This document shows, piece after piece, positions 24,510-47,564 of a DNA stretch of 64,000 nucleotides (positions within the stretch are counted from its first letter, which is position 1; the number at the start of each line of letters is the position of its first letter). The position numbers were made by a program, and so were the translations under genes. Source of the DNA: Thermotoga sp. KOL6 (lineage in GTDB: Bacteria > Thermotogota > Thermotogae > Thermotogales > Thermotogaceae); NCBI RefSeq assembly GCF_002866025.1, contig NZ_LNDE01000002.1, positions 186,001 through 250,000 of the forward strand, written 5' to 3'. The notes beneath the pieces were generated by a model, which saw only the letters and a program-made list of their open reading frames with translations, had not been told where the DNA came from and ran no database searches.

Positions 24510-25190
24510 GTGTCAAAGGTTCATGAAACAGTGGAAAAAATCGAAAAATTGATAGAAGAAATGAATCTGAAGAAGGGTGATAGACTTCCTTCGGAAAGAG
24601 AGTTGTGTGAACGAACGGGTGCTTCACGAATAATCGTAAGAGAAGCTCTGAGCTTTCTGAAAGCTTCAGGAATCATCAAAAGTAGAAGAGGGAGCGGAAA
24701 TTACATTGTAAGACTTCCCAGGGAAAAAAACAGTAGATCAGAAAATTTTGAGCTTTTTTTAGAGTATGATATAGATGAATTGGTGAACGCTCGTGAGTTT
24801 TTGGACAAAGCAATTGCGGAATTTTGTCTTCACAATTTTACTCTTCAAATGATAGAGGATATGGAGCGGTTTCTTTCCATGATGAAGGAAAACTACAAGC
24901 GAAAGAATTTCCAATCTTTGACAGAGGCAGATATAATGTTTCACAAAGTGTACATAAAAGCAGCGCGGAATCCCATCATTTCATCTTTAGCGGGTAATTT
25001 GTTGGAATACATGAAAAGCCGTATCTGGTATGTTCTGAAAAAGGATTATCTGGCAGATTCGGAATATCAGAAAAGATCCATAAAGTTTCATGAGGATATA
25101 CTCAATGCAATAGTCTCAAATAACAAAACGCATCTTCTAAAGGCTATAGAAAATCATTACAAAAACATCCTCGATCATCTAAGCCTTTGA
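24510..25190 (+). CDS. GntR-family (FadR/FCD subfamily) regulator, candidate regulator of the sulfo-sugar operon
   Basis: The 226-residue protein has an N-terminal winged helix (about 1-75; LPSERELCERTGASRIIVREALSFLKASGIIKSRRGSGNYIV) and a helical FCD ligand domain (about 85-226; DIMFHKVYIKAARNPIISSL and HEDILNAIVSNNKTHLLKAIENHY provide the usual metal-binding His/Asp). GTG start after AAAGGAGGGG. It ends 26 bases from the convergent glycosidase gene. It has no obvious link to inositol, and the operon promoter at 36261-36288 contains TGGTAATACCA, of the TGGTnnnACCA type bound by FadR-like proteins, so it may control that operon. Confidence 0.82.
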   Translation: MSKVHETVEKIEKLIEEMNLKKGDRLPSERELCERTGASRIIVREALSFLKASGIIKSRRGSGNYIVRLPREKNSRSENFELFLEYDIDELVNAREFLDKAIAEFCLHNFTLQMIEDMERFLSMMKENYKRKNFQSLTEADIMFHKVYIKAARNPIISSLAGNLLEYMKSRIWYVLKKDYLADSEYQKRSIKFHEDILNAIVSNNKTHLLKAIENHYKNILDHLSL

Positions 25191-25216: not shown

Positions 25217-27133
25217 CTATCCATAAAATCTTTCTATCTTTCTTATGGTAGTCAGAATATCTTCTGAAAATTTGGAATCCTCTCTTATAAAAACAGGTGG
25301 TTCACCAAGAGGAGCGGGGATCTCCACCCATCCTCCTTTGAATGTTTTTTGGGACCAAATGTGTACCCATTTTTCTCCTCGTGGCAAAAAGACTCTCCAC
25401 CATCTCTTACCATGTTTCAAAACGGGAGCCACTAGTATGTCGTCTCCAAAGAGATATTGGTATTTTGTCCTCCAAGACTCAAGATCCTCGGGATAGTTTA
25501 AAAACAGAGGTTTCACAACTGGTAAGTTGTTTTTCAGAGAAGTGTTGAATTGTTCTTTTATATATTGAATAAGGGACACGTGTACATTTGCCATTTTCGA
25601 GAAATGTTTTAGTATATCGTCCTGTGTGTCAAATTGAATATTTTTCAATGGTCGATTAGTTTGATGGGTACGCATGACAGGAGAGAAAGCTCCCACTTCG
25701 GCCCATCTCATAAACAGTTCGGGAGTTCTTTTCAACCAAAATAGAGAAGTGTACCCTCCTATATCAAAATGCATGAACCTTACGCCAGAAAGACCAGAAC
25801 TCAACATAGCTGGAACAACGGTTGGTAATCCATCGCTTTTTGACCAATCGACGTTTTGATCTCCTGCCCAAAAGCATGGGCAAAATTTGGTTGATCCGAG
25901 GAATCCCGATCTCATGAAATAGATAATACTTCTCGATGATTCTTTTACAGCTTCAAAGTTCAACCTTGCCCACTCTACTGGATATTTATTATGGAACTCA
26001 ACGGCTGACGAGGTTTTCAAAAGAGCATCTAATGGTAAATACTCCCCGAAATCGGCCATCCAACCATCTATACCTATCGATATCATATTCCTTACTATTA
26101 CCGACTTGTACCATTCGAATGCTTCCGGATTGCTTAAATCTAAAAGCCCGGCTGGGAATGTTGTAACAATAATGTCGTAGACACTACCATCTCTTTTCTT
26201 AACTAAATAGCCGTTTTTGGCAGCTTCCTTGTACATTTTCCCATCTTTTATCAAGAACGGGTTTATATAAGCCAAAAAATGGATGCCCATTTCCCTCCAT
26301 TTTGAGATATACTCCGGCAGATCGTGGTAATCCTCCCTGTCGTATTCCCAGTTCCAGTACACTTGTCTTCCAAACTTGGTGTACACTTTTCCAGACCAAT
26401 CTTGACACCAAATAGCATGAAGAGGGATATCCCACTTTTTGGCTGTTTCAATGACTTTTTCAGCTTTTTCTATTCCTCCTTGGGAGGCTAACCATACACC
26501 AAACATCCAATCTTCATACTCAAATATTCCACCGAAAATTTCATAGAATTTTCTCACCATATCCTCTATTGAACCTTCGAGGAATATGACGCTACACTTG
26601 TTATTCCATATTTCAAAAGTAGCAACATCTTTCAATTCAATCATTACAGGAGTAAAGACTTTCAAGACGATTCCGTATCCTTTGTTGGAGAAAAAAACTG
26701 GTTGAGGAAAATATGTAGTGTACCAATCTCCCCTCACTCCTTTTAGTGCTGCAAGGAGGGATATTAAGTTTTTTCCTCTGCCAACTCCCTGTTCTTGCAC
26801 AAGCAATGGAAATTTTTTCCCTCTCAAATTGAGTTCGTTGTATTGTTCCCCACCTCCGAAGATGATCTCATCATCTTCCAATTCGATCTCCATTATTATT
26901 CTGTTACTTGTTTTGTTCCCATTGATCTCTATTTCTAAGGGGTCTTCAGAAACCACCCTTAAGGTTCCCTCAAATTTTTTCTTTTCTTTTAAAACCGATT
27001 TTATGAGGTAGTGTCCATGGTGTTCTTTAATTTCTACCTCTCCAGTACCTTCCCATAACCTTTCTGAGGAAAACAGGATTCGATCCTGGATTTTAATGTA
27101 AAATTTATTCTTAGAGGGATTGAATATCACCAT
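25217..27133 (-). CDS. GH31 glycosidase of the YihQ (sulfoquinovosidase) type
   Basis: The 638-residue protein has an N-terminal beta-sandwich, a TIM barrel and C-terminal beta domains of GH31. The nucleophile is Asp361 in DGWMADFGEYLPLD and the acid/base Asp425 in WAGDQNVDW; both stretches are close to E. coli YihQ. Of the YihQ residues that recognise sulfoquinovose (Gln, Gln, Arg, Trp, Tyr), Gln218, Gln244, Trp260 and Tyr461 appear conserved, but the Arg position is Gln257 with Arg at 256. It should release an unusual glucose derivative, possibly sulfoquinovose from its glycerol glycoside. No signal peptide, so substrate is imported first. Last gene of the minus-strand operon; start overlaps the isomerase gene by 23 bases. 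An ordinary alpha-glucosidase/xylosidase is the alternative. Confidence 0.85.
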   Translation of the reverse strand: MVIFNPSKNKFYIKIQDRILFSSERLWEGTGEVEIKEHHGHYLIKSVLKEKKKFEGTLRVVSEDPLEIEINGNKTSNRIIMEIELEDDEIIFGGGEQYNELNLRGKKFPLLVQEQGVGRGKNLISLLAALKGVRGDWYTTYFPQPVFFSNKGYGIVLKVFTPVMIELKDVATFEIWNNKCSVIFLEGSIEDMVRKFYEIFGGIFEYEDWMFGVWLASQGGIEKAEKVIETAKKWDIPLHAIWCQDWSGKVYTKFGRQVYWNWEYDREDYHDLPEYISKWREMGIHFLAYINPFLIKDGKMYKEAAKNGYLVKKRDGSVYDIIVTTFPAGLLDLSNPEAFEWYKSVIVRNMISIGIDGWMADFGEYLPLDALLKTSSAVEFHNKYPVEWARLNFEAVKESSRSIIYFMRSGFLGSTKFCPCFWAGDQNVDWSKSDGLPTVVPAMLSSGLSGVRFMHFDIGGYTSLFWLKRTPELFMRWAEVGAFSPVMRTHQTNRPLKNIQFDTQDDILKHFSKMANVHVSLIQYIKEQFNTSLKNNLPVVKPLFLNYPEDLESWRTKYQYLFGDDILVAPVLKHGKRWWRVFLPRGEKWVHIWSQKTFKGGWVEIPAPLGEPPVFIREDSKFSEDILTTIRKIERFYG

Positions 27134-28463
27134 TTCTAAACACCTTCCATCCTTTCATTTTCGCAAATCTTATCAGTGGATTTGCAAAAGATCCGTATCC
27201 TAAAACGACATGATGCGGGAACCCATTTTCCACGAGAACTTTTAAGGTTTTCACAGGGTCTTTTACCTTGACTCTCACGTATGTTCCTTTTAACTCTTGC
27301 TTAGTGGGAATGGCTTCGCCTTCAGTTACAAAAAGTCTCCATTCCCCATCCATATGATCTACTCGAGCAATGGTAACATGTCCTGGCTTAAGGACAAAAT
27401 CCGTGGTTACACCTTTTCCGCCTGCAAAATAGGTTTCCAAAGATTTTCTTGATTTGCCATCCCAAAGTGTATGCGGCGCTACTCCACAATGCCACATTAG
27501 AAAAGTTGAATCCTTTTCGATGATCTGACTAATATCTGAAAGGTAAACATCCTGACATCCAATTGCTTTGAGCATCAACATAGTAATAGCTCCTAGTATA
27601 TCACCTTCGCAGCTTAAAACGAAGTCATTTGCCATATTCCATGCCATAGCAGCACAAGGTGATATCCCGTAATGGGTAGCAAACTCTGGCCAACATCTAA
27701 TAGCTAAAGCATCAAAGTTTCCTGTTTCTATGATTCTTTTCAAGGAAATAGCCAAATTGCATACTTTATTTTTTTTGTCTTCAGAAAGCTTACTCGTATC
27801 GTAAATCTTTTCCATTTCACGCTTCAGAGTTTTTAAAGATTCATCATCCGCTCTTATATTAAAGGCAGTGTTCAAGGGAATGTATTCTACCATCACATTC
27901 AACTCTTTTAAAAGAAGGGGTTCGTAAATGTCAATGTTCAAGAAAGTTTTTGCATGCCCCCCTAGAACTCCTATTTTCGATCCTTTCAGTTTTTTGCTGA
28001 TTTTTATGACATCAATCCATTCTTTGAACTCTCGGTGAAAAGATTTGTCTTTTGATGAACCGTAAATGAAATCAACATCCTTTCTTCCAATTTTTTTCAA
28101 ATTAGATACGTCAAGATGCGCTCCTACTAAAGAGTTGAGTTTTACCCTCCCTTCTGAAGAATAAGGGGGCTCAGGGACTGCCCAACAAAGCATTGGAGTT
28201 TTTGGAAATTCTTGCGAAAGAAGAAGAGCAATGTTACCAAGATGAAAGGTTAAGCTCATGATTACCATACCGTCTATGTCTATCTTCTTCGAACGATTTA
28301 AAAACGCTTCTAAATTTTCTGGGTACTCTACAACATCCGGTGGTATGATCCAATTGACCTCTTTGTATTTTCTTAGGATATTTAATTCTTCTTCAAATAT
28401 GCTCCTTCCTTCAGACACCTCATATGTACTTCTCACGGCTGGAACAAGTAGAAGATTGATCAT
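27111..28463 (-). CDS. L-fucose/L-arabinose isomerase-like protein, candidate sulfoquinovose isomerase
   Basis: This 450-residue protein resembles the fucose/arabinose isomerase superfamily. The C-terminal half carries the expected Mn ligands: Glu260 in AIRCWPEF, Asp288 in SCEGDI and His325 in FLMWHCGVAPH. It is shorter than FucI (about 590) and close to the group used as sulfoquinovose-sulfofructose isomerases in sulfo-transaldolase operons of Firmicutes, as far as I remember. The ATG at 28463 is preferred over a GTG nine bases upstream that lies within AGGGGTGAT, the ribosome binding site. It starts 5 bases after the aldehyde dehydrogenase gene. Substrate assignment is inference from context. 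Confidence 0.75.
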   Translation of the reverse strand: MINLLLVPAVRSTYEVSEGRSIFEEELNILRKYKEVNWIIPPDVVEYPENLEAFLNRSKKIDIDGMVIMSLTFHLGNIALLLSQEFPKTPMLCWAVPEPPYSSEGRVKLNSLVGAHLDVSNLKKIGRKDVDFIYGSSKDKSFHREFKEWIDVIKISKKLKGSKIGVLGGHAKTFLNIDIYEPLLLKELNVMVEYIPLNTAFNIRADDESLKTLKREMEKIYDTSKLSEDKKNKVCNLAISLKRIIETGNFDALAIRCWPEFATHYGISPCAAMAWNMANDFVLSCEGDILGAITMLMLKAIGCQDVYLSDISQIIEKDSTFLMWHCGVAPHTLWDGKSRKSLETYFAGGKGVTTDFVLKPGHVTIARVDHMDGEWRLFVTEGEAIPTKQELKGTYVRVKVKDPVKTLKVLVENGFPHHVVLGYGSFANPLIRFAKMKGWKVFRNGDIQSL

Positions 28464-28468
28464 AGATA

Positions 28469-29884
28469 TCACCCCTGATCGAATATGATAGTTTTTATTT
28501 CCATCATCTCTTCTAACGCAAATCTGATCCCTTCTCTTCCTATTCCGCTTTCTTTGTATCCACCATATGGCATGAAATCTGCCCTATATCGCGGGCCTTC
28601 GTTTATTAAAACACCACCAAATTCCAGTGTTTCGATAGCTCTAAACGCTTCATCGATTTTTGAGGTGAAAACTCCCGCTTGAAGGCCATATTTTGTGGAA
28701 TTCGCTTCTTTAAGGGCTTCGTCAAAACTCTCAAAAGCATTTACAGCAACTGCCGGACCGAAGAGCTCTTCAGTCATCATTTTTGTATCTTTTGGTACGT
28801 GTAGCAGAACTGTTGGTTGAATCAGGGTGTCTTTCCTGTTCCCTCCTATTCCTATTTTGGCGCCCTTTTCTACCGCTTCTCTTATCCATTCCTCTATTCT
28901 AATGGCGTTGGCTTCATCTATTACTGGCCCCATATCAGTTTCTTCCTTCATGGGATCCCCCGTCTTTAATTTGCTCACTTCTTTTATGAGTAGATCCACA
29001 AAATCTTCGTATATAGTCCTCTGAACATAGACTCTTTGAACAGAAATGCAAACTTGTCCAGCCTGTGAAAATCCACCAGATACTGTGGCTTTTACTGCCT
29101 TTTCAAGGTTTCCGGTTTCTGTTACTATAAGTGGACTGTTGGACCCAAGCTCCAATGCAACTTTTTTGAGGCCGGCATTTTGCATTATCATTTTTCCTAC
29201 TGAAACACTCCCTGTAAAACTAACCATTCTTATCCTTCTGTCTCTTACGATGGCAGTTCCCACCTTTCCACCCGGTCCTGTTAGAATACTCAGGGCTTCA
29301 GGAGGAAGACCTGCTTCAAGTAGTATCTCCCCTAGAATCAAATTCGTGAGAGGATCTTGGGTAGGAGGTTTTATGATAACAGCGTTTCCAGCCGCTATGG
29401 CAGGACCTATCTTGTGAGCACAAAGGGCTAACGGAACGTTGAAAGGTACTATAGCAGCCACTATACCAACAGGTTCTCTTATAAAGTATCCTTTCTTTTT
29501 TTCGGAACCTTTCAGAGAATCAAAAGGTAAGGTCTCGCCATGAATCCTTTTTGCCTCTTCCGCTGACAATCTGAACAGGCCAGCAGTTCTGAGTACTTCT
29601 GCTCTGGCCTCTCTTATAGTTTTTCCGGATTCTTTGACAAGAAGAACCGACATTTCTTCGGATCTTTTCTCGATCAGTTCCGCTGCTTTTTCCAATACCT
29701 CAACTCGTTTCCAAATCGGAGTTTTTTTCATCACTTTTGCCCCTTCGACGGCTTTACTAATGGCCTCTTCTATATCCTCTTCTGTGGCTATGGGAACTGT
29801 ACCAACCACGCTTCCATCATAAGGATTTAAAACCTCTATTTGCTCATCTCTATCTATCCATTTCCCAGCAACAAGCATCTTCAT
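28469..29884 (-). CDS. NAD(P)-dependent aldehyde dehydrogenase, candidate sulfolactaldehyde dehydrogenase
   Basis: The 471-residue enzyme is a full-length aldehyde dehydrogenase. It has the oxyanion-hole Asn149 (VPFNVP), cofactor motif SFTGSVSVG, general base Glu245 (VALELGSN) and nucleophile Cys279 (GQVCISVQR). It is of the succinic-semialdehyde/non-phosphorylating glyceraldehyde-3-phosphate type, the group to which known sulfolactaldehyde dehydrogenases belong. In the operon it would oxidise 3-sulfolactaldehyde to 3-sulfolactate. ATG 29884 follows GGGAGGGTG; a longer reading frame upstream lies in the LarA gene. The gap to the upstream gene is 4 bases. Confidence 0.9.
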   Translation of the reverse strand: MKMLVAGKWIDRDEQIEVLNPYDGSVVGTVPIATEEDIEEAISKAVEGAKVMKKTPIWKRVEVLEKAAELIEKRSEEMSVLLVKESGKTIREARAEVLRTAGLFRLSAEEAKRIHGETLPFDSLKGSEKKKGYFIREPVGIVAAIVPFNVPLALCAHKIGPAIAAGNAVIIKPPTQDPLTNLILGEILLEAGLPPEALSILTGPGGKVGTAIVRDRRIRMVSFTGSVSVGKMIMQNAGLKKVALELGSNSPLIVTETGNLEKAVKATVSGGFSQAGQVCISVQRVYVQRTIYEDFVDLLIKEVSKLKTGDPMKEETDMGPVIDEANAIRIEEWIREAVEKGAKIGIGGNRKDTLIQPTVLLHVPKDTKMMTEELFGPAVAVNAFESFDEALKEANSTKYGLQAGVFTSKIDEAFRAIETLEFGGVLINEGPRYRADFMPYGGYKESGIGREGIRFALEEMMEIKTIIFDQG

Positions 29885-29888
29885 GATT

Positions 29889-31130
29889 TCACCCTCCCAG
29901 TTTGTAGATTTTGTACGGAATAATTTGGGACGCGTTTGGGATAACAGCGATTTCTTTTTCAGAAGAGACAATTTTGAGAACCTCACGTGTGTTTTCTAAA
30001 GGATGAAAAAACATTTTTCTTAGTTTTTCTCCGGGTAAAGATGAAAGTATGAATACTTTACATTTAGTAAGAGTGCGAGCCAATAAAAATGCTTTATGAG
30101 GCCCTGCCTTAAAATTTGAAAAATCAAAATTCTTTATAACATCCTCTGGGGAAGAGGCTTTTTCGAGGATTTGAACGTATCCTCCTTCGTCACCAAACCC
30201 GTTCGAACATTCCGCTAAAAGTAATATTTTCCCTCCCGACTTGCAAAATTCTTGGGCAACAACTAAAGCTTTCTGGGATTGATAAAGATCTATGTCTCTG
30301 GGATATCCTCCTGGGGACACTATTACCGCACTGTAGAGCTTCTTTATAGGCATCCCACTAATATCTTTTACAAAATGGCATGCTTTCCGATGAGATTCTG
30401 GATGGCTTCCAATAAACAGTTTTATTATTTCTTTCCTCTCATTCGTGACGGCGTTTATCAGAAGATCCAAACCTACCATGTTTCCTATTTCATCTATTTC
30501 CTCTCTCACTGGATTTCCTTTGATAACTCCTATTTTTGCAAAAGGGGAAGCGAGTTTGGAATGATTCTTGCTCACGGTTTCCCTTCCACCTAACCCTATT
30601 GCCACTCCTTTCGCACCACCTGAAAAACCCGCGAATTGGTGCTCTTCCACGAGAGAGAGGACGATTTTAAGATCGGATTCCACGAAATATTTCATGATCC
30701 ATACAGGCGTATTGAAAGAAGTTTTCCCCACAAAGGTTAACGTCTCTCTCTTATCCGCGTTGTGTACAAGAATTTTTATCTCGCGACTTTTAATTGGAAT
30801 AAGTTCAGTTATTTCTTCTTTTGATGGGCTTCTATGAAGTCCTGTCCCCACACATATGCGTATTTCCTTTGCTTTTTTTCTCGATAGAATGTTCACTAAA
30901 GGTGGAAGTAAGTCTTTTGATATGTTAGGTCGTGTCTGATCAGGAATAGCAACTGCTACTGTTTTCCCAGAAACATGAAGTTCCTTGAAGGCTTTCTCGA
31001 GTTCTTCTTTAACTTCTTTCTCATCCATGCGGGGGAAATTCCCCCGCTGTCTCTCTAAAAGTTCGATTTTTAAATTTTTCGGAAATGTTAAAATAATCTC
31101 ACTTTTGCCGTAAGGAAGCACTATTTCCAT
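29889..31130 (-). CDS. LarA-family nickel-pincer hydroxyacid racemase, candidate sulfolactate racemase
   Basis: The 413-residue protein is a LarA homologue. Motifs present: PDQTRPN (cofactor-binding), GTGLHR, HQFAGFSGGAKG containing the lysine that covalently holds the nickel pincer nucleotide in LarA, and SKNHSKL with a metal-ligand histidine. LarA relatives racemise or epimerise 2-hydroxyacids. Here it lies between the aldehyde dehydrogenase and SuyB, a place where (S)-sulfolactate would have to be turned into the (R) form used by SuyAB. LarB/C/E, which make the cofactor, are not in the window. ATG 31130 follows AGGAG; SuyB ends 2 bases before it. Confidence 0.85.
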   Translation of the reverse strand: MEIVLPYGKSEIILTFPKNLKIELLERQRGNFPRMDEKEVKEELEKAFKELHVSGKTVAVAIPDQTRPNISKDLLPPLVNILSRKKAKEIRICVGTGLHRSPSKEEITELIPIKSREIKILVHNADKRETLTFVGKTSFNTPVWIMKYFVESDLKIVLSLVEEHQFAGFSGGAKGVAIGLGGRETVSKNHSKLASPFAKIGVIKGNPVREEIDEIGNMVGLDLLINAVTNERKEIIKLFIGSHPESHRKACHFVKDISGMPIKKLYSAVIVSPGGYPRDIDLYQSQKALVVAQEFCKSGGKILLLAECSNGFGDEGGYVQILEKASSPEDVIKNFDFSNFKAGPHKAFLLARTLTKCKVFILSSLPGEKLRKMFFHPLENTREVLKIVSSEKEIAVIPNASQIIPYKIYKLGG

Positions 31131-31132
31131 TA

Positions 31133-32287
31133 TCAAGCGCTCCTGTAAAGTTTTGTTAAAACGAATTCCTTGTGGTTAAGTGTTTCTGCTCTCACCATAC
31201 GCCCATTTGCTGTTTCCACAACTCTCTGCCAAAGTTTGTCAGCTGCTTCATCTATGCTTACTCCTTCTGTTAATACTGGCGAAACATCGATGTCTATATG
31301 TTCTGACATAACACGTGCAGTCTTCGGATTTGCTGTGATTTTCACGACGGGTATTATAGGATTTCCTATAGGATTTCCTTGCCCGGTTGGGAAAAGATGA
31401 ATTACGGCACCGGCTGCTGCAAAGAGTGTAACGGCTTCTGCAGCAGCGGATGAAGTGTTCATGAAATACAGTCCTTTTCCTGGAACATCCTCTAAGAAAT
31501 CTAAAGCACCATCTATCATGGCGTTTCCAATCTTCTGAATATTTCCAAGAGCTTTCTCTTCTATCGTACTCAAACCGCCTGCAATGTTTCCTTCAGTAGG
31601 TTGTGATCCAAGGAGATCTACACCTTGTGATTTAATCAATTCCTGATATTCATTGAAAATCTTCAAGAATTTTTCTTTGTCTTCTTTTTTCTTGAATCTA
31701 GAAGCTATGATATGCTCGGCACCTGTCAATTCTGTTGTTTCTCCGAAAAGTACCGTTCCACCTATTTCGAGGAATCTCTCAGTGAATCTCCCTACTACTC
31801 TGTTTGAGCCGAGTCCTGAAGTGGTATCCGATTCTCCACATTTCAAGCTTATTGTAATTTCACTGATATCCACCGGTTCTCGTTTCAAGTTGGTGGTATC
31901 TTCTACCATTTTTACAGCAACTCTTGAGACTTTTTCAATTGTTGCGAGTTGACCATATCCCTCCACCCAAAAGGCTTCGACAGGTTTTCCTGTTTTGGCT
32001 ATTCCATCTGCCACTCTGTGAGTCCATTTTGGCTCGATACCAACAACTATTACCGCAGCGACATTTGGGTTGGATCCCGTTCCTATAAGTGTTTTGAAGA
32101 AAAGTTCCAAGTCTTTCCCAAACTGAAGTCGTCCGTATGGATGTGGAAGAGCAAGAGTACCAGCAATGGATTTTTCCACAGCTTCAACAACGGCATTTGA
32201 TATATCGTCAACCGGTAATAGAAGAACGTAATTCCTGACACCAACCTTTCCATTTTCTCTCACATAACCAAGTATTGTTCTTTCCAT
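31133..32287 (-). CDS. suyB: (R)-sulfolactate sulfo-lyase, large subunit
   Basis: The 384-residue protein belongs to the altronate dehydratase/SuyB family and matches SuyB rather than UxaA: GKVGVRNYVLLLPVDDISNA near the N-terminus, PHPYGRLQFGKDLELFF, IGTGSNPNVAAVIVVGIEP, LKCGESDTTSGLGSN and GGLSTIEEKALGNI. SuyAB splits (R)-3-sulfolactate into pyruvate and sulfite, an iron-dependent elimination. ATG 32287 is chosen since GGGGGTGAT lies in front; a start 15 bases earlier would lie inside suyA. It follows suyA by 5 bases. Altronate or another hexonate as substrate is the alternative but is less likely given the separate small subunit and these motifs. Confidence 0.85.
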   Translation of the reverse strand: MERTILGYVRENGKVGVRNYVLLLPVDDISNAVVEAVEKSIAGTLALPHPYGRLQFGKDLELFFKTLIGTGSNPNVAAVIVVGIEPKWTHRVADGIAKTGKPVEAFWVEGYGQLATIEKVSRVAVKMVEDTTNLKREPVDISEITISLKCGESDTTSGLGSNRVVGRFTERFLEIGGTVLFGETTELTGAEHIIASRFKKKEDKEKFLKIFNEYQELIKSQGVDLLGSQPTEGNIAGGLSTIEEKALGNIQKIGNAMIDGALDFLEDVPGKGLYFMNTSSAAAEAVTLFAAAGAVIHLFPTGQGNPIGNPIIPVVKITANPKTARVMSEHIDIDVSPVLTEGVSIDEAADKLWQRVVETANGRMVRAETLNHKEFVLTKLYRSA

Positions 32288-32292
32288 TTTTA

Positions 32293-32577
32293 TCACCCCC
32301 ATCTCAGGCTTCGTATGTTGTGAACGTGAACATGGGAACCTTTGGTAATGTTTTTTGTAGCCTTACCTATTACTTCTCCGTATTCTTTTATTTTTTCTCC
32401 TTCTTTGATGTCCCTCAATGCTATTTTGTGACCGAGTGGAATATCCTCTCTGGTTTCCAATTCGTAAAATTTTTCTCCTTCAAGTGTTTTTCCTTTTATT
32501 TTTTCATTGGCAGATATGTCACGAACTGCTATTCCTACGTCATCTCCCTCTTTGTGAACCAAAAAATCCACTACCAT
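32293..32577 (-). CDS. suyA: (R)-sulfolactate sulfo-lyase, small subunit (SAF domain)
   Basis: This 94-residue SAF-domain protein begins VVDFLVHKEGDDVGIAVRD and contains DIPLGHKIALRDI, YGEVIGKATKNITKG and a terminal HVHNIRSLRW, which is the SuyA pattern. It pairs with SuyB to form the lyase; the conserved histidines near the end likely take part in the active site. ATG 32577 has AGGAGGTGA in front that overlaps the stop of the transaldolase gene (7-base gap). In altronate dehydratases this domain is usually fused to the large domain; here the two are separate, as in SuyAB. Confidence 0.85.
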   Translation of the reverse strand: MVVDFLVHKEGDDVGIAVRDISANEKIKGKTLEGEKFYELETREDIPLGHKIALRDIKEGEKIKEYGEVIGKATKNITKGSHVHVHNIRSLRWG

Positions 32578-32584
32578 TTCTGTA

Positions 32585-33247
32585 TCACCTCCTGTATATG
32601 CTATCCCACGCTTCAGAAAAGATTTGAAGTCCCAGTTTTGTATACGGATTGTCAAAGGCTCTCCTGTAAACTTCGAACCCCGCTGTCACAATGTCAGCTC
32701 CTGACATGGCTGCTTCTATGAAGTGCCTTCCAGATCTAACAGCAGCGACTATTATCTGGGATTTGTAACCGTATCCTTTTACAGCTTGAACGATTTGTTT
32801 CAAAAAATCTGTGTTCATTTCCCCTCTTTCTTCTCTCCATCCCACAAAAGGGCTTATATAAAAAGCCCCTAGCCGAGCAGCTTGGACCGCCTGAACCATG
32901 TTGAAAACCAGAGTCACATTCACTTTCACTCCCTTAGGGCTCAATTCTGCTAAAGCTTCAAACCCATTCTCTGTAGCTGGAATTTTTATTGCAAAATTTT
33001 CTGAGATCGCTGCTAACGAAAGAGCCTCCTGAACGATTTCTTCTGGAGAATCTAAATGTGGATTGACTTCTAGACTCACGGTGATATGCGTTCCTTCGAC
33101 AAGTTTTTTCACTTCTTTGGCAAAATTTTCTACTGTCATTCCTGCATTCATCAAATGCCTTGGATTCGTTGTCACACCATCGATCTTCCATTTTTTAATG
33201 GCGTACTCAATCTCATCCAGTTTGGCACTATCGAGAAAGAATTTCAT
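32585..33247 (-). CDS. Transaldolase / fructose-6-phosphate aldolase-family protein, candidate sulfofructose transaldolase
   Basis: The 220-residue class I aldolase has the Schiff-base lysine Lys88 in ENFAIKIPAT and the barrel signatures MKFFLDSA and DGVTTNP. Positions that form the phosphate pocket in ordinary members differ: TTNPSL is TTNPRHL, SPFVGR is ISPFVGW (133-139) and the later AASVR-H is AAVRSGRHF. A changed anion pocket fits a 6-sulfonated rather than 6-phosphorylated ketose. It would transfer dihydroxyacetone from sulfofructose to glyceraldehyde 3-phosphate, giving sulfolactaldehyde and fructose 6-phosphate. ATG follows GGAGGTG. It lies between the permease and suyA genes. Confidence 0.82.
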   Translation of the reverse strand: MKFFLDSAKLDEIEYAIKKWKIDGVTTNPRHLMNAGMTVENFAKEVKKLVEGTHITVSLEVNPHLDSPEEIVQEALSLAAISENFAIKIPATENGFEALAELSPKGVKVNVTLVFNMVQAVQAARLGAFYISPFVGWREERGEMNTDFLKQIVQAVKGYGYKSQIIVAAVRSGRHFIEAAMSGADIVTAGFEVYRRAFDNPYTKLGLQIFSEAWDSIYRR

Positions 33248-33262
33248 TGTATCGACACCTCC

Positions 33263-34081
33263 TTATCCTTTAATGCCCCCTGCTGACAAACCCTTTATTA
33301 TGTACCTTTGAAAACCTAAAGTTATGGCAAAAACGGGAATGAGCATAATTGTTCCAGCGGCCGAAAGTTGACCCCACAATGGAGCATATTGACCAAGGAA
33401 TCCGTTAACTGCAACAGGTGCCGTCTTTGCCCTCACACCGGTTAAAACTAAAGCGTAGATAAACTCGTTCCATGACATGAGGAATGTAAAAACAGCAGCT
33501 ACAACAATCCCAGCTGATGCAAGAGGGAAGAATATCCTCCAATATATTTGGAAATCTTTGCAACCATCTATTTTTGCAGCTTCTTCAAAATCGCGCGGTA
33601 TGCCTTCAAAAAATGGTAAAAGCAAAGCCACAGCATATGGAAGGTTGAAACTGATGTGTGCTAGAGATAATCCTAAAATATTGTCACTGAGGCCCATTTT
33701 CTTGAAGATTAGATAGAAAGGAAGTGACAACGTTATTTGTGGTACCATTCTCAAAAGAAGTAGCAAGAAAATAATGCCGTCATTTATTTTGAATCTGTAC
33801 CTGGATAATCCATAAGAGGCCATTGAACCGAAGAAGACAGAAACAAAGGAAGAAATACTTGCGGCTATCAAGGAATTTTTCAAGCCACGAACAAAATCCT
33901 CATTTTCGAACACTTTTTTATAGCTCGCAAGAGTAGGTTTAAAATAGAAAGGATTTCTACTCCAGATGTCTATGTCTTTTTTAAAACCGTTTAGAACAAC
34001 TATAAGAATTGGAAAAAGTTCTACAACTACTATGAAAAGGGCAATAAAAAAGATGATCCATCCCATTGTTCTTTTTCTCAT
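33263..34081 (-). CDS. CUT1 ABC transporter permease 2 of the sulfo-sugar operon
   Basis: The 272-residue MalG/UgpE-type permease has six membrane segments and the coupling loop GIPRDFEEAAKIDGCKDFQIYW shortened to the EEAAKIDG core. ATGA overlap with the upstream permease gene. GGTGAG serves as ribosome binding site. No ATPase gene occurs in this operon, so energy must come from a shared CUT1 ATPase such as InoK. Confidence 0.9.
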   Translation of the reverse strand: MRKRTMGWIIFFIALFIVVVELFPILIVVLNGFKKDIDIWSRNPFYFKPTLASYKKVFENEDFVRGLKNSLIAASISSFVSVFFGSMASYGLSRYRFKINDGIIFLLLLLRMVPQITLSLPFYLIFKKMGLSDNILGLSLAHISFNLPYAVALLLPFFEGIPRDFEEAAKIDGCKDFQIYWRIFFPLASAGIVVAAVFTFLMSWNEFIYALVLTGVRAKTAPVAVNGFLGQYAPLWGQLSAAGTIMLIPVFAITLGFQRYIIKGLSAGGIKG

Positions 34082-34986
34082 AGTGTCTCACCACGCAAAC
34101 CTCTTTTAACAACGAAGTAAGATATTGCAAGCGAGATAATCATCAAGAACGTCCCCACTGCAGAAGCGTAGGATATGTTTCCAAACTCAAAAGCTTGCTT
34201 GTGTATATACAGTGAAAGTAACATAGTCGCGTTTGAAGGACCTCCGTAAGTCATAACGTAAACCTCCGAGAAAATTCTGAGAGCGTCAATTAGTCTTAAA
34301 AGAAAAGCGATTGCCAAAACTGGCTTTAAAAAAGGGATAATGATGTATGATACTCTTTGAAAAAAACCTGCGCCATCTATAAGAGCGGCTTCTATATATT
34401 CATTGGGTAGTGAGGATAAACCAGCGAATATTATCATGAACATGAAAGGCCACATTCTCCATATATCTTGAAAAATCACGGCCACGTAGGAAAAGGTTTT
34501 ATCCGCGAGCCAAGCTTCTGGCCCAATTGATAGTCTCTGAAACAGAGCAGCTAGCACACCATAGTCCGGTTGTAACATCAATCGCCAAGTCAATCCGGAA
34601 AGAACTGGTAATACAAATACAGGAAGCATGAGTAAAGAACGAAGTAATTTAGAAAAAGGAAATTCCTTGTTGAACAACAATGCAACGAAAAATCCAATAA
34701 TAAGCTCTATAGGAAGTGCTATGGCTATAAAACCTAATTGTAACCATAAAGAATGCCAAAAATCTGGATCTTTAAACATAGAGGAATAGTTCTGAAAGCC
34801 AATGAATTTTACATTCCCAAGGAATAGCAATTGTCTATTCGTAAAAGAGATGAAAAAGACATATACAACCGGATATAACAAAATAAAAGCAACTATTAAA
34901 AGCGTTGGAATAATGAAGAAAAGGAAGGGGCCGATCCCCTTCCTTTTTATTTTTTTAGTAGCCGTATTTCTTGAGGACGTTTTCAA
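34078..34986 (-). CDS. CUT1 ABC transporter permease 1 of the sulfo-sugar operon
   Basis: The 302-residue MalF/UgpA-type permease has six membrane segments, with the coupling loop NEYIEAALIDGAGFFQR. The only start that keeps the first membrane helix whole is a TTG at 34986, 32 bases inside the binding-protein gene, with GGTGATC in front. This places a GC-rich 10-bp hairpin (34921-34945) inside its first codons. It overlaps the second permease by ATGA. Confidence 0.85.
   Translation of the reverse strand: MKTSSRNTATKKIKRKGIGPFLFFIIPTLLIVAFILLYPVVYVFFISFTNRQLLFLGNVKFIGFQNYSSMFKDPDFWHSLWLQLGFIAIALPIELIIGFFVALLFNKEFPFSKLLRSLLMLPVFVLPVLSGLTWRLMLQPDYGVLAALFQRLSIGPEAWLADKTFSYVAVIFQDIWRMWPFMFMIIFAGLSSLPNEYIEAALIDGAGFFQRVSYIIIPFLKPVLAIAFLLRLIDALRIFSEVYVMTYGGPSNATMLLSLYIHKQAFEFGNISYASAVGTFLMIISLAISYFVVKRGLRGETL
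34921..34945 (-). promoter_or_regulatory. Stem-loop just after the binding-protein stop codon, within the permease coding start
   Basis: AAGGAAGGGG and CCCCTTCCTT form a perfect 10-bp stem with a 5-base loop (minus strand reads stem, then TTCTTC). Its place after the binding-protein gene matches the hairpins at 16695, 20705 and 40029, but here it codes for part of the permease N-terminus. Confidence 0.65.
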
Positions 34987-36223
34987 TGCCGATCACCATC
35001 CTGTCTACCGCTAGTTCAGCGGGGAGCTCTCCAGAGATGGCTTTGAGCCAGTAAACTCTTATGACTTGAGAAACTTCTGGATAATGCTCGAATCTTGGCC
35101 TTTCGACGGCATACTTGAGAGAGTCATAAATTCCTGCAAACCAAGGTCTCTCCTTTTGAAGTTCCGGATCAAGTAACAGAGAAGCTCTGGCAGGAGTCAT
35201 CCCTTCTGGAATGAGCTTTTTCTGAGTATCCAACGCCATCCACCAGTATGCAAATTCAGCAGCAGCTTTTTTGTTTTTGGCAGCTTTGGGTATTCCTACT
35301 ATCCAAGCTCCTCTTACAGCCGCTCTTCCAGCGGGACCAGCTGGGGGAGCAGAGTACACAATTTTTCCCGCGACAAGAGATTTTTCAGGATTTTCAAGAT
35401 CCGGGATTAGTGCGGGCCAATTGAACATAGAGAACACTTGACCTTGCGCAAAAGCAGCCATTCTTTCGGAATGACCATAATCCAGAGCACCTTTCGGAGC
35501 GTATTTTAGAAGCTCTTTGTAAAACTCGATAGCTTGAACTGCTTTTTCTTTGTCAAGCACTATTTTGTAACCATCTTCTGTTACTTCGAGAACTTTTGTT
35601 CCGAAACTTCTGAACATCCATATAGCTTCGCAAGTACTACCCTCCGTTGGTTTTGTAAATGGAGCCCATCCGTATATGCCTTTCTTGGAAAGAAATTTGG
35701 CCATATCAAGGAGTTCTTGAAGAGTTTCTGGAACTTTCATCTCGTAACCATATTCTGCTTTGAATTCATCCTTATACTTTTCAATAATATCCTTTCTGGT
35801 GAGCCATACGTATATGTTTGCGTTAACAGGAAGGCCCATAAATTCACCTTTCCATTTTCCCGCTTCGAGTGCAAGAGGCATAATATCGTTCATATCAGGC
35901 TGAGGATAATAATCTGTAGAGGGCCATTCGGAGAGAGGTAGTAATAAAGGTGCAACCATCGGTATGTTAGGCTCATCCACAGCGACAAGATCATAATCCG
36001 AATTTTCAAGAGTCACACTTAAAAGTGTTTTTTGGAGCATTGAACCGCTTGGTACCAATTCGAGTTCGACTTTGATTCCCGTTTTTCTCTCAAACTCATC
36101 TAAACCTGCTTTTAAAGCTCTGGTCATAGCGTCGTCCCAAAGGAGTACTCTTACCGTTGAAGAAAACGCTATCGCACTGACCAACAAAAGAGAAGCAAGA
36201 ATCACCACACTGAAACGCTTCAT
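34955..36223 (-). CDS. CUT1 ABC transporter substrate-binding protein, first gene of the sulfo-sugar operon
   Basis: The 422-residue protein has a signal peptide (MKRFSVVILASLLLVSAIAFS) and the family 1 solute-binding fold (TVRVLLWDDAMTRALKAGLDEFERKTGIKVELELVPSG). ATG 36223 follows AGGGGGGATC; an in-frame start far upstream would lie in the promoter. As the first gene of the operon it should bind the sugar or glycoside that the GH31 enzyme later cleaves. The ligand cannot be predicted from sequence alone. It belongs with the two permeases that follow. Confidence 0.9.
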   Translation of the reverse strand: MKRFSVVILASLLLVSAIAFSSTVRVLLWDDAMTRALKAGLDEFERKTGIKVELELVPSGSMLQKTLLSVTLENSDYDLVAVDEPNIPMVAPLLLPLSEWPSTDYYPQPDMNDIMPLALEAGKWKGEFMGLPVNANIYVWLTRKDIIEKYKDEFKAEYGYEMKVPETLQELLDMAKFLSKKGIYGWAPFTKPTEGSTCEAIWMFRSFGTKVLEVTEDGYKIVLDKEKAVQAIEFYKELLKYAPKGALDYGHSERMAAFAQGQVFSMFNWPALIPDLENPEKSLVAGKIVYSAPPAGPAGRAAVRGAWIVGIPKAAKNKKAAAEFAYWWMALDTQKKLIPEGMTPARASLLLDPELQKERPWFAGIYDSLKYAVERPRFEHYPEVSQVIRVYWLKAISGELPAELAVDRMVIGIENVLKKYGY

Positions 36224-36260
36224 GCTGATCCCCCCTAGTAGAGAAGTTGTACGCTCATAT

Positions 36261-46280: not shown

Positions 46281-47564
46281 GTGACTGTGTATTTAGAAGG
46301 TGAACCTCTTACGGAAGAAAAAATAACGGAAGGTTTAGTAAAGCTTGTTGAGGATTTAGGAAAAATCAAAAGGGTTCTGGTTATCCATACCGATTATACA
46401 AGAGTAGATTTCACGAACCTGATAGCTAGAAATCTGTACAAGTTGCTCCTCGAGAAAGGAATAGAAGAATTTCATACACTCAATGCGAGTGGTACACACA
46501 GAGCAATGACAGTTGAGGAGTTCGAAAAAAAGCTGGGAATATCCAAATACGAGAGAGGAGTTTTCTTTCACAACCACGAGTTCTTCAATCCAGAAGCATT
46601 GGAATTCGTTGGATCTCTTTCACCAGATTTTGTTTCGGAGATGACAGAAGGAGATTTGGAGGAAGAAATACCTGTAAAGGTGAATAAGATGCTTTTTGAG
46701 GATTTCGATGTGATCTTTTTCATCAATGGGACGGTTCCACACGAATCTACAGGATTTTCTGGAGGATTGAAGATAGTCATACCTGGAATCGCGAGTCCCG
46801 AGGTGGTTGACACCTTTCATTGGGCTGCAGTTCTCATAGGGATCCCAAGGTTGATAGGGACGGTAGACAACCCGGCGAGGAAAATAATAAATCGTGCATC
46901 TGAATTGGTTTTTCAAAAGATAAAAATCAGGTCTTTCACCCTGAATATGGTGTACGAGGAAGAAGAAGAAGTGATTCCCAGAGCACTTTACATTGACGAA
47001 GGATATGAAGGATTTCTGAGGGCTTATGAGAAGGCATGTGAACTCAGCGCAAAGCTTCACGTGAAATACTTGGATCGTTCTCTCAAAAGAGCAGTTCAGG
47101 TGATAGGTGAAGAATACGACGAAGTGTGGACAGCCGGTAAGGGTTCCTACAAGCTTCAAAGACCTGGAGTGATGGCCAAAGGCGGACAAATCATAATTTA
47201 CGCTCCTCATATCAAGAAGTTCCACTCCAATCCACAGATGGACAAATGGATCAGGGAGATCGGATACCATTGTAAAGATTACGTAAAATGGTACTTGAAG
47301 AAACATCCTGATTTCAACAAAAACGTTGCGGCACATGTGATCAACGTTAGAGGAGCAGGCGTGTTCGATCCCGAAACGGGAAAAGAGGATTTTGAATTCG
47401 ATGTGATACTTGCAACATCCATCCCTGAAGATGAATGTAAAGCAGTGAATTTAGGATATATGGATCCTTCGAAAATAAGGAAAGAAGACTTTATGGATGA
47501 GTATTCTCTTTGGATAGAGCCGGGTGGGAAGTACCTTTACGACTTGAAGGAGAGGAGAAGATGA
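46281..47564 (+). CDS. LarA-family hydroxyacid epimerase of the gluconate operon
   Basis: The 427-residue protein is a second LarA-type nickel-pincer family member in the window. It has DYTRVD, NASGTHRAM, HESTGFSGGLKIVIPG with the cofactor-binding Lys, and TFHW with a possible metal-ligand His. It matches TM0442 in order. Some LarA relatives are gluconate 2-epimerases, and its place between the SDR and gluconokinase genes makes a C2 epimerase of a sugar acid likely. GTG start after GGGGTGAG. It overlaps the kinase by ATGA. It is clearly different from the LarA at 29889, so the two are not recent duplicates. Confidence 0.83.
   Translation: MTVYLEGEPLTEEKITEGLVKLVEDLGKIKRVLVIHTDYTRVDFTNLIARNLYKLLLEKGIEEFHTLNASGTHRAMTVEEFEKKLGISKYERGVFFHNHEFFNPEALEFVGSLSPDFVSEMTEGDLEEEIPVKVNKMLFEDFDVIFFINGTVPHESTGFSGGLKIVIPGIASPEVVDTFHWAAVLIGIPRLIGTVDNPARKIINRASELVFQKIKIRSFTLNMVYEEEEEVIPRALYIDEGYEGFLRAYEKACELSAKLHVKYLDRSLKRAVQVIGEEYDEVWTAGKGSYKLQRPGVMAKGGQIIIYAPHIKKFHSNPQMDKWIREIGYHCKDYVKWYLKKHPDFNKNVAAHVINVRGAGVFDPETGKEDFEFDVILATSIPEDECKAVNLGYMDPSKIRKEDFMDEYSLWIEPGGKYLYDLKERRR

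Follow-up and report, generated by a model that had tools for sequence, protein, structure and literature searches.

Few organosulfur compounds are as abundant as the plant sulfo-sugar sulfoquinovose, and an operon for its use in Thermotoga sp. KOL6 raises the question of how sulfolactate made in one hand can reach a lyase that takes the other. Sulfolactaldehyde (SLA) from sulfoglycolysis is the S form and SLA dehydrogenase yields (S)-sulfolactate (PMC11382572, PMC12421959), whereas SuyAB is an (R)-sulfolactate sulfo-lyase, with SlcC and ComC as the racemising pair (PMC9594981). A preliminary description of this DNA had set out the same mismatch and its solution by two dehydrogenases, in agreement with these papers on homologues; hitherto, wrong-hand sulfolactate has been known to reach SuyAB only by way of the dehydrogenase pair. 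We propose that in the window (the whole stretch of 64,000 nucleotides analysed) a LarA homologue encoded between the dehydrogenase and SuyB genes is probably a nickel-pincer-nucleotide (NPN)-dependent 3-sulfolactate racemase working in the S-to-R direction and replacing SlcC/ComC, a reading of substrate and direction that is drawn from sequence and gene context. The LarA family and the need for racemisation were both known; the link between LarA and sulfolactate is, within the reach of the searches, new. No paper in the open-access literature searched connects sulfolactate to LarA, to lactate racemase or to nickel, in line with the earlier statement that a one-enzyme LarA route had gone undescribed.

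The larA gene and its operon

The coordinates originally given for the gene correspond to a 413-codon ORF that fills the interval, although the strand required correction: the ORF lies on the minus strand, with its ATG at 31130 and its stop at 29889, and the plus strand across the same interval contains many stops. Its location exactly between the dehydrogenase and SuyB genes is confirmed, with 2 nt separating the suyB stop from the larA ATG (an AGGAG-type ribosome site lies within suyB), and 4 nt separating the larA stop from the ATG of the aldehyde dehydrogenase (ALDH) gene. On the minus strand the genes run from a substrate-binding protein and two ABC permeases through transaldolase, SuyA, SuyB, LarA and ALDH to the SftI-type isomerase and GH31 sulfoquinovosidase (Table 1), constituting a complete sulfo-TAL/SuyAB operon that is faced by a GntR regulator gene.

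SuyB shares 57% identity with the SuyB-like protein encoded in the Cupriavidus pinatubonensis hpsN-hpsO-...-suyA-suyB cluster. The SuyA ORF overlaps the transaldolase gene, and the true SuyA start is therefore probably downstream of the first TTG. The best NCBIfam matches of the ALDH are to lactaldehyde dehydrogenase and to the sulfoacetaldehyde dehydrogenase SafD, both under the respective cut-offs. Sulfo-TAL clusters that contain SuyAB are described for Thermotogae and Chloroflexi (PMC9594981), and the operon is one of these; it includes LarA, whereas the text of the reviews consulted names no racemase step.

Table 1. Features of the sulfoquinovose operon and of the second NPN-type enzyme in the window
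Feature	Position	Strand	Basis
LarA homologue (LarAH5-type), proposed sulfolactate racemase, 413 aa	29889..31130	-	Lar_N/LarA_C, NCBIfam LarAH5, residues, tree
SuyB, large subunit of (R)-sulfolactate sulfo-lyase	31133..32302	-	Pfam GD_AH_second/GD_AH_C; homologue identity
SuyA, small SAF-domain subunit	32293..32655	-	Pfam SAF
Sulfofructose transaldolase (SftT/SqvA type)	32585..33247	-	Pfam TAL_FSA, context
Candidate sulfolactaldehyde dehydrogenase (SlaB-like ALDH)	28469..29884	-	Pfam Aldedh
Sulfoquinovose isomerase (SftI-like)	27111..28472	-	NCBIfam SftI 1.8e-75, under cut-off
GH31 sulfoquinovosidase (YihQ-like)	25217..27133	-	NCBIfam PRK10426 787 bits
ABC sugar importer, whole	33263..36231	-	ORFs; kept upstream of TAL-suyAB in relatives
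ABC permeases, two	33263-34081, 34078-34986	-	ORFs
ABC substrate-binding protein	about 34955-36231	-	ORF
GntR/FadR-type cluster regulator	24510..25190	+	Pfam GntR + FCD; kept in relatives
Second NPN-type enzyme, GntE2 orthologue	46281..47564	+	phmmer to 4nar 1.9e-266

Substrate pocket and family of the window LarA

The protein matches Pfam Lar_N (1.3e-42) and LarA_C (2.6e-15), and thus has both LarA superfamily domains. In an alignment with LarA (5huq) and Mar2 (6d6z), the catalytic residues D72, H108, H174 and K298 of LarA correspond to D64, H99, H164 and K287, and the NPN-binding R75, K184 and H200 to R67, K174 and H190, so that all seven are kept and the initial assignment as a LarA homologue with all key residues stands. 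In solved complexes, LarA residues 175, 176, 358 and 359 face the alpha-carbon substituent of the substrate, and the Lys of malate racemases is thought to hold the second carboxylate (PMC7583248, PMC11851776). The equivalent pocket residues in the window LarA are Q165, F166, H345 and K346, compared with F, F, W and T in lactate racemase, and the last two are part of a GHK motif (G343-H345-K346). This H-K pair is that of malate racemases, making the pocket one of malate/dicarboxylate and not of lactate type. Because 3-sulfolactate is malate with SO3- replacing one carboxylate, such a pocket would fit the sulfoquinovose context. An AlphaFold2 model, for which the window protein and a single relative served as input, had a mean pLDDT of 41 and was discarded.

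The lactate racemase of Lactiplantibacillus plantarum (PDB 5huq) shares its NPN chemistry, catalytic and cofactor residues and domains with the window LarA, but has a hydrophobic pocket (F175, F176, W358, T359) for the methyl group. The closest solved structure is that of LarAH6/Mar2 from Thermoanaerobacterium thermosaccharolyticum (PDB 6d6z, 4.9e-56), which likewise has a cationic side-chain pocket for a second acid group, but differs in having Tyr172/Lys173 in place of Gln165/Phe166, in its sub-millimolar KM for malate, and in forming its own clade. LarA enzymes span many 2-hydroxy acids (PMC11770544), and the substrate might be another cellular compound of this kind with no sulfonate link (lactate, glycerate or a hexonate). 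This is highly improbable, as the lactate signature F-F/W-T(E/Q) is missing from the pocket, which is not hexonate-type either, and a separate GntE2 is present in the genome for hexonates.

Among NCBIfam families the best match is to the malate racemase LarAH5 (NF052595), with a score of 460 bits, 2 bits short of the curated cut-off of 462; LarA members of Bacillota and Chloroflexota adjoining suyAB score 516-553 bits. This best match, together with a GHK pocket like that of Mar2, favors the view that an ordinary malate racemase (LarAH5/MAR) lies in the operon by chance and passes D- or L-malate to central metabolism. We consider that unlikely: the operon is without a malate enzyme, and Mar1 of Desulfitobacterium hafniense, the only assayed group member named in PMC7583248, has a KM of 55 mM for L-malate, with its authors doubting that malate is the native substrate (PMC7583248).

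Mar1 and its family share with the window LarA the Gln at LarA position 175, the GHK motif and all catalytic residues; they differ in that LarAH5 was named malate racemase from an assay, whereas the window LarA falls just under the cut-off and is located in a sulfoquinovose operon. A passage of PMC12890257, citing Cook et al. 2006, has D. hafniense DCB-2 respiring sulfolactate. In a genus that is probably Desulfitobacterium, a clade member was present in three of four genomes, always beside suyAB and with 90-100% identity to a query protein taken from one genome of that genus. Since LarAH5 is the Gln-175 clade (see below) and Desulfitobacterium-type members adjoin suyAB, sulfolactate racemisation may also be the role of Mar1, which is presumed to correspond to these suyAB-adjacent members.

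When 106 LarA proteins were placed in a tree, the 32 that have Gln at LarA position 175, including the window LarA (Q165), all fell on one branch with a support of 99. Group 5 of LarA homologues has Gln or His at this position, replacing the aromatic residue that follows the second catalytic His (PMC7583248), and because this published residue and the HMM results agree, we equate the Gln-175 clade with LarAH5. Every suyAB-adjacent LarA falls within it (13/13), compared with 19 of 93 others (p 2e-8, kinship ignored), and eight of these 19 belong to genomes that carry suyB at another site. The clade extends beyond sulfolactate enzymes, however, as 11 of its 32 members are from genomes in which suyB was not detected, and one (locus L160, 6613-12900) is in a run with fumarase alpha and beta and succinate-dehydrogenase/fumarate-reductase-type subunits. 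The latter context suggests malate use by that protein, and gives some support to a malate racemase at the window locus also. Some clade members thus probably act on malate, and Gln at LarA position 175 was rejected as a sulfolactate marker by itself.

Distribution of LarA and SlcC/ComC-type genes beside suyAB

In a set of 103 Thermotogota genomes, SuyB was counted at an identity of at least 75%, giving 14 genomes; these whole-genome searches replaced a contig scan with SuyB as the sole query, which had yielded seven loci only. In seven of the 14 (the window's own genome included, and from two families) larA directly follows suyB and, where the contig allows, precedes the ALDH gene, and in an eighth Thermotogota genome the order larA-ALDH-SftI-SQase is found at a contig start. 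That the arrangement is kept in six further Thermotogota genomes argues that it is not due to chance, and conservation of larA between ALDH and SuyB in two families is difficult to reconcile with a malate racemase that is in the operon by accident. Within the window's genus, suyB and Q-clade larA are both present in three genomes and both absent from four.

The other seven SuyB genomes are Pseudothermotoga-like, with SuyB 76-84% identical, and have the same operon but no larA; neither LarA, SlcC nor ComC is encoded in these operons (loci L049-L055 and L036), and the flanking genes code for LacI regulators, a metallo-beta-lactamase-fold protein and transporters, with no isomerases. That these operons are served by SlcC/ComC encoded elsewhere was ruled out, since Ldh_2 (PF02615), the ComC family, is absent from all 14 Thermotogota genomes with suyB. 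It is likewise absent from the window's own genome, and the SlcC/ComC pair is not found within the window operon. The Pseudothermotoga-like operons show that a sulfo-TAL route can exist without a recognised racemase alongside, which counts against the role proposed for LarA.

If the route can run in this way, the window LarA might be a sulfolactate racemase that acts mainly on opposite-hand sulfolactate imported from outside, with the window SuyAB or ALDH having a stereospecificity unlike those studied; Bacillota relatives that combine LarA with a tripartite transporter point in the same direction. We regard this as quite unlikely, because the sugar importer and sulfoquinovosidase of the window operon indicate that sulfolactate is made within the cell, and because Chloroflexota sulfo-TAL clusters contain an SlcC/ComC-type pair, which is sensible only if the hand must change.

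The Pseudothermotoga-like genomes do carry a malate-type LarAH6, outside the sulfo-TAL/SuyAB operon, with Trp at LarA position 175 and mostly beside malic enzyme. The true malate-type LarAs of the phylum form a separate clade with a different context, which counts further against malate as the substrate of the window LarA. A second pairing of LarA with a UxaA-type lyase was seen at loci L057, L058, L059, L067 and L068, where LarAH6 (Trp 175) shares an operon with malic enzyme, a transporter of TctA/TctC type and a UxaA-family pair whose identity to SuyB is 37-41%.

The preliminary description had proposed a search for larA next to suyAB in other genomes, and the pairing recurs in three phyla, with Q-clade LarA adjoining suyAB in seven genomes of Thermotogota, one of Chloroflexota and several of Bacillota. 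The Chloroflexota sulfo-TAL clusters L076-L079 and L082 contain suyA-suyB with genes for ALDH, an SlcC-type 2-hydroxyacid dehydrogenase and a ComC-type Ldh_2 protein, and cluster L084 has transaldolase-suyA-suyB-larA instead of the SlcC/ComC-type pair. In Bacillota, suyA-suyB-larA is found at L101, L103 and L120, followed at L101 and L103 by a tripartite TctABC-type transporter; at L042 and L104, the two LarA loci with a ComC-type gene, larA, a GntR gene and the ComC-type gene are beside suyAB, which counts against the proposal. At L120 the LarAH5-clade gene has a suyB copy on either side.

A survey of suyB loci at an identity of at least 55% gave 62, of which 14 (window included) have a Q-clade LarA, 14 have SlcC+ComC-type genes, and most others have neither. 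The SlcC+ComC-type pair is present at none of the 14 loci with LarA, counting the window among these, versus 14 of the 48 without; the Fisher p of 0.03 was obtained with the window counted as without LarA and with loci taken as independent, and is a rough guide only. Across 398 Bacillota genomes, suyB is present in 11 of the 22 with a Q-clade LarA detected among the matches listed, versus 10 of the 376 without, in a sample that includes some incomplete genomes and with counts that treat genomes as independent of shared descent. At L195 and L196 a LarA of another group has as its neighbours a SuyA/SuyB-like pair (about 41%) and, close by, an SlcC-type dehydrogenase, a further case of LarA with a UxaA-type lyase.

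Proposed route and cofactor supply

In the route that we favor, the isomerase and transaldolase would convert sulfoquinovose to (S)-sulfolactaldehyde, from which the ALDH would form (S)-sulfolactate. LarA would then transfer the C2 hydride onto the NPN cofactor, hold sulfopyruvate transiently and return the hydride on the other face to give (R)-sulfolactate, which SuyAB would cleave to pyruvate and sulfite. An S-forming ALDH and an R-specific SuyAB are presumed here by analogy with the studied homologues; if the window SuyAB is not R-specific, LarA could still be a sulfolactate racemase, used in a different direction. The SlcC/ComC pair of Chromohalobacter and Paracoccus has the same net reaction as that proposed for LarA and the same place in suyAB clusters, but consists of two NAD(P)-dependent dehydrogenases from families unrelated to LarA, with sulfopyruvate as a free intermediate. 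With LarA in their place, neither free sulfopyruvate nor NAD(H) would be involved. Such a one-enzyme nickel route, if true, would explain how anaerobic thermophiles and sulfite-respiring Bacillota manage without ComC, and would give NPN enzymes their first sulfonate substrate and Mar1 a native one.

Sulfite inhibits L. plantarum LarA reversibly and competitively, and it also shields the enzyme's cofactor against oxidation (PMC11851776). By analogy, sulfite released by SuyAB is predicted to act on the window LarA, which it may hold in check or protect. More tentatively, most members of the LarAH5 branch, Mar1 included, may be sulfolactate racemases, which would make them the first NPN enzymes to act on a sulfonate and a one-enzyme replacement of SlcC/ComC in three phyla, with SuyAB-derived sulfite both protecting and inhibiting the NPN cofactor as a form of product feedback.

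The cofactor-synthesis genes larB, larC and larE, for which the genome was to be checked, are all present, contiguous in the order larC, larB, larE at C1:30062-32803 and each over its NCBIfam cut-off. Their presence removes a possible objection and is not specific support, because the GntE2 orthologue in the window needs larBCE too. This second enzyme, which matches 4nar (Thermotoga maritima GntE2), is outside the sulfoquinovose pathway and draws on the same cofactor supply as the window LarA. It is surrounded by TRAP transporter, 6-phosphogluconate dehydrogenase-like, epimerase-like, SDR and sugar kinase genes, a context of hexuronate/gluconate use.
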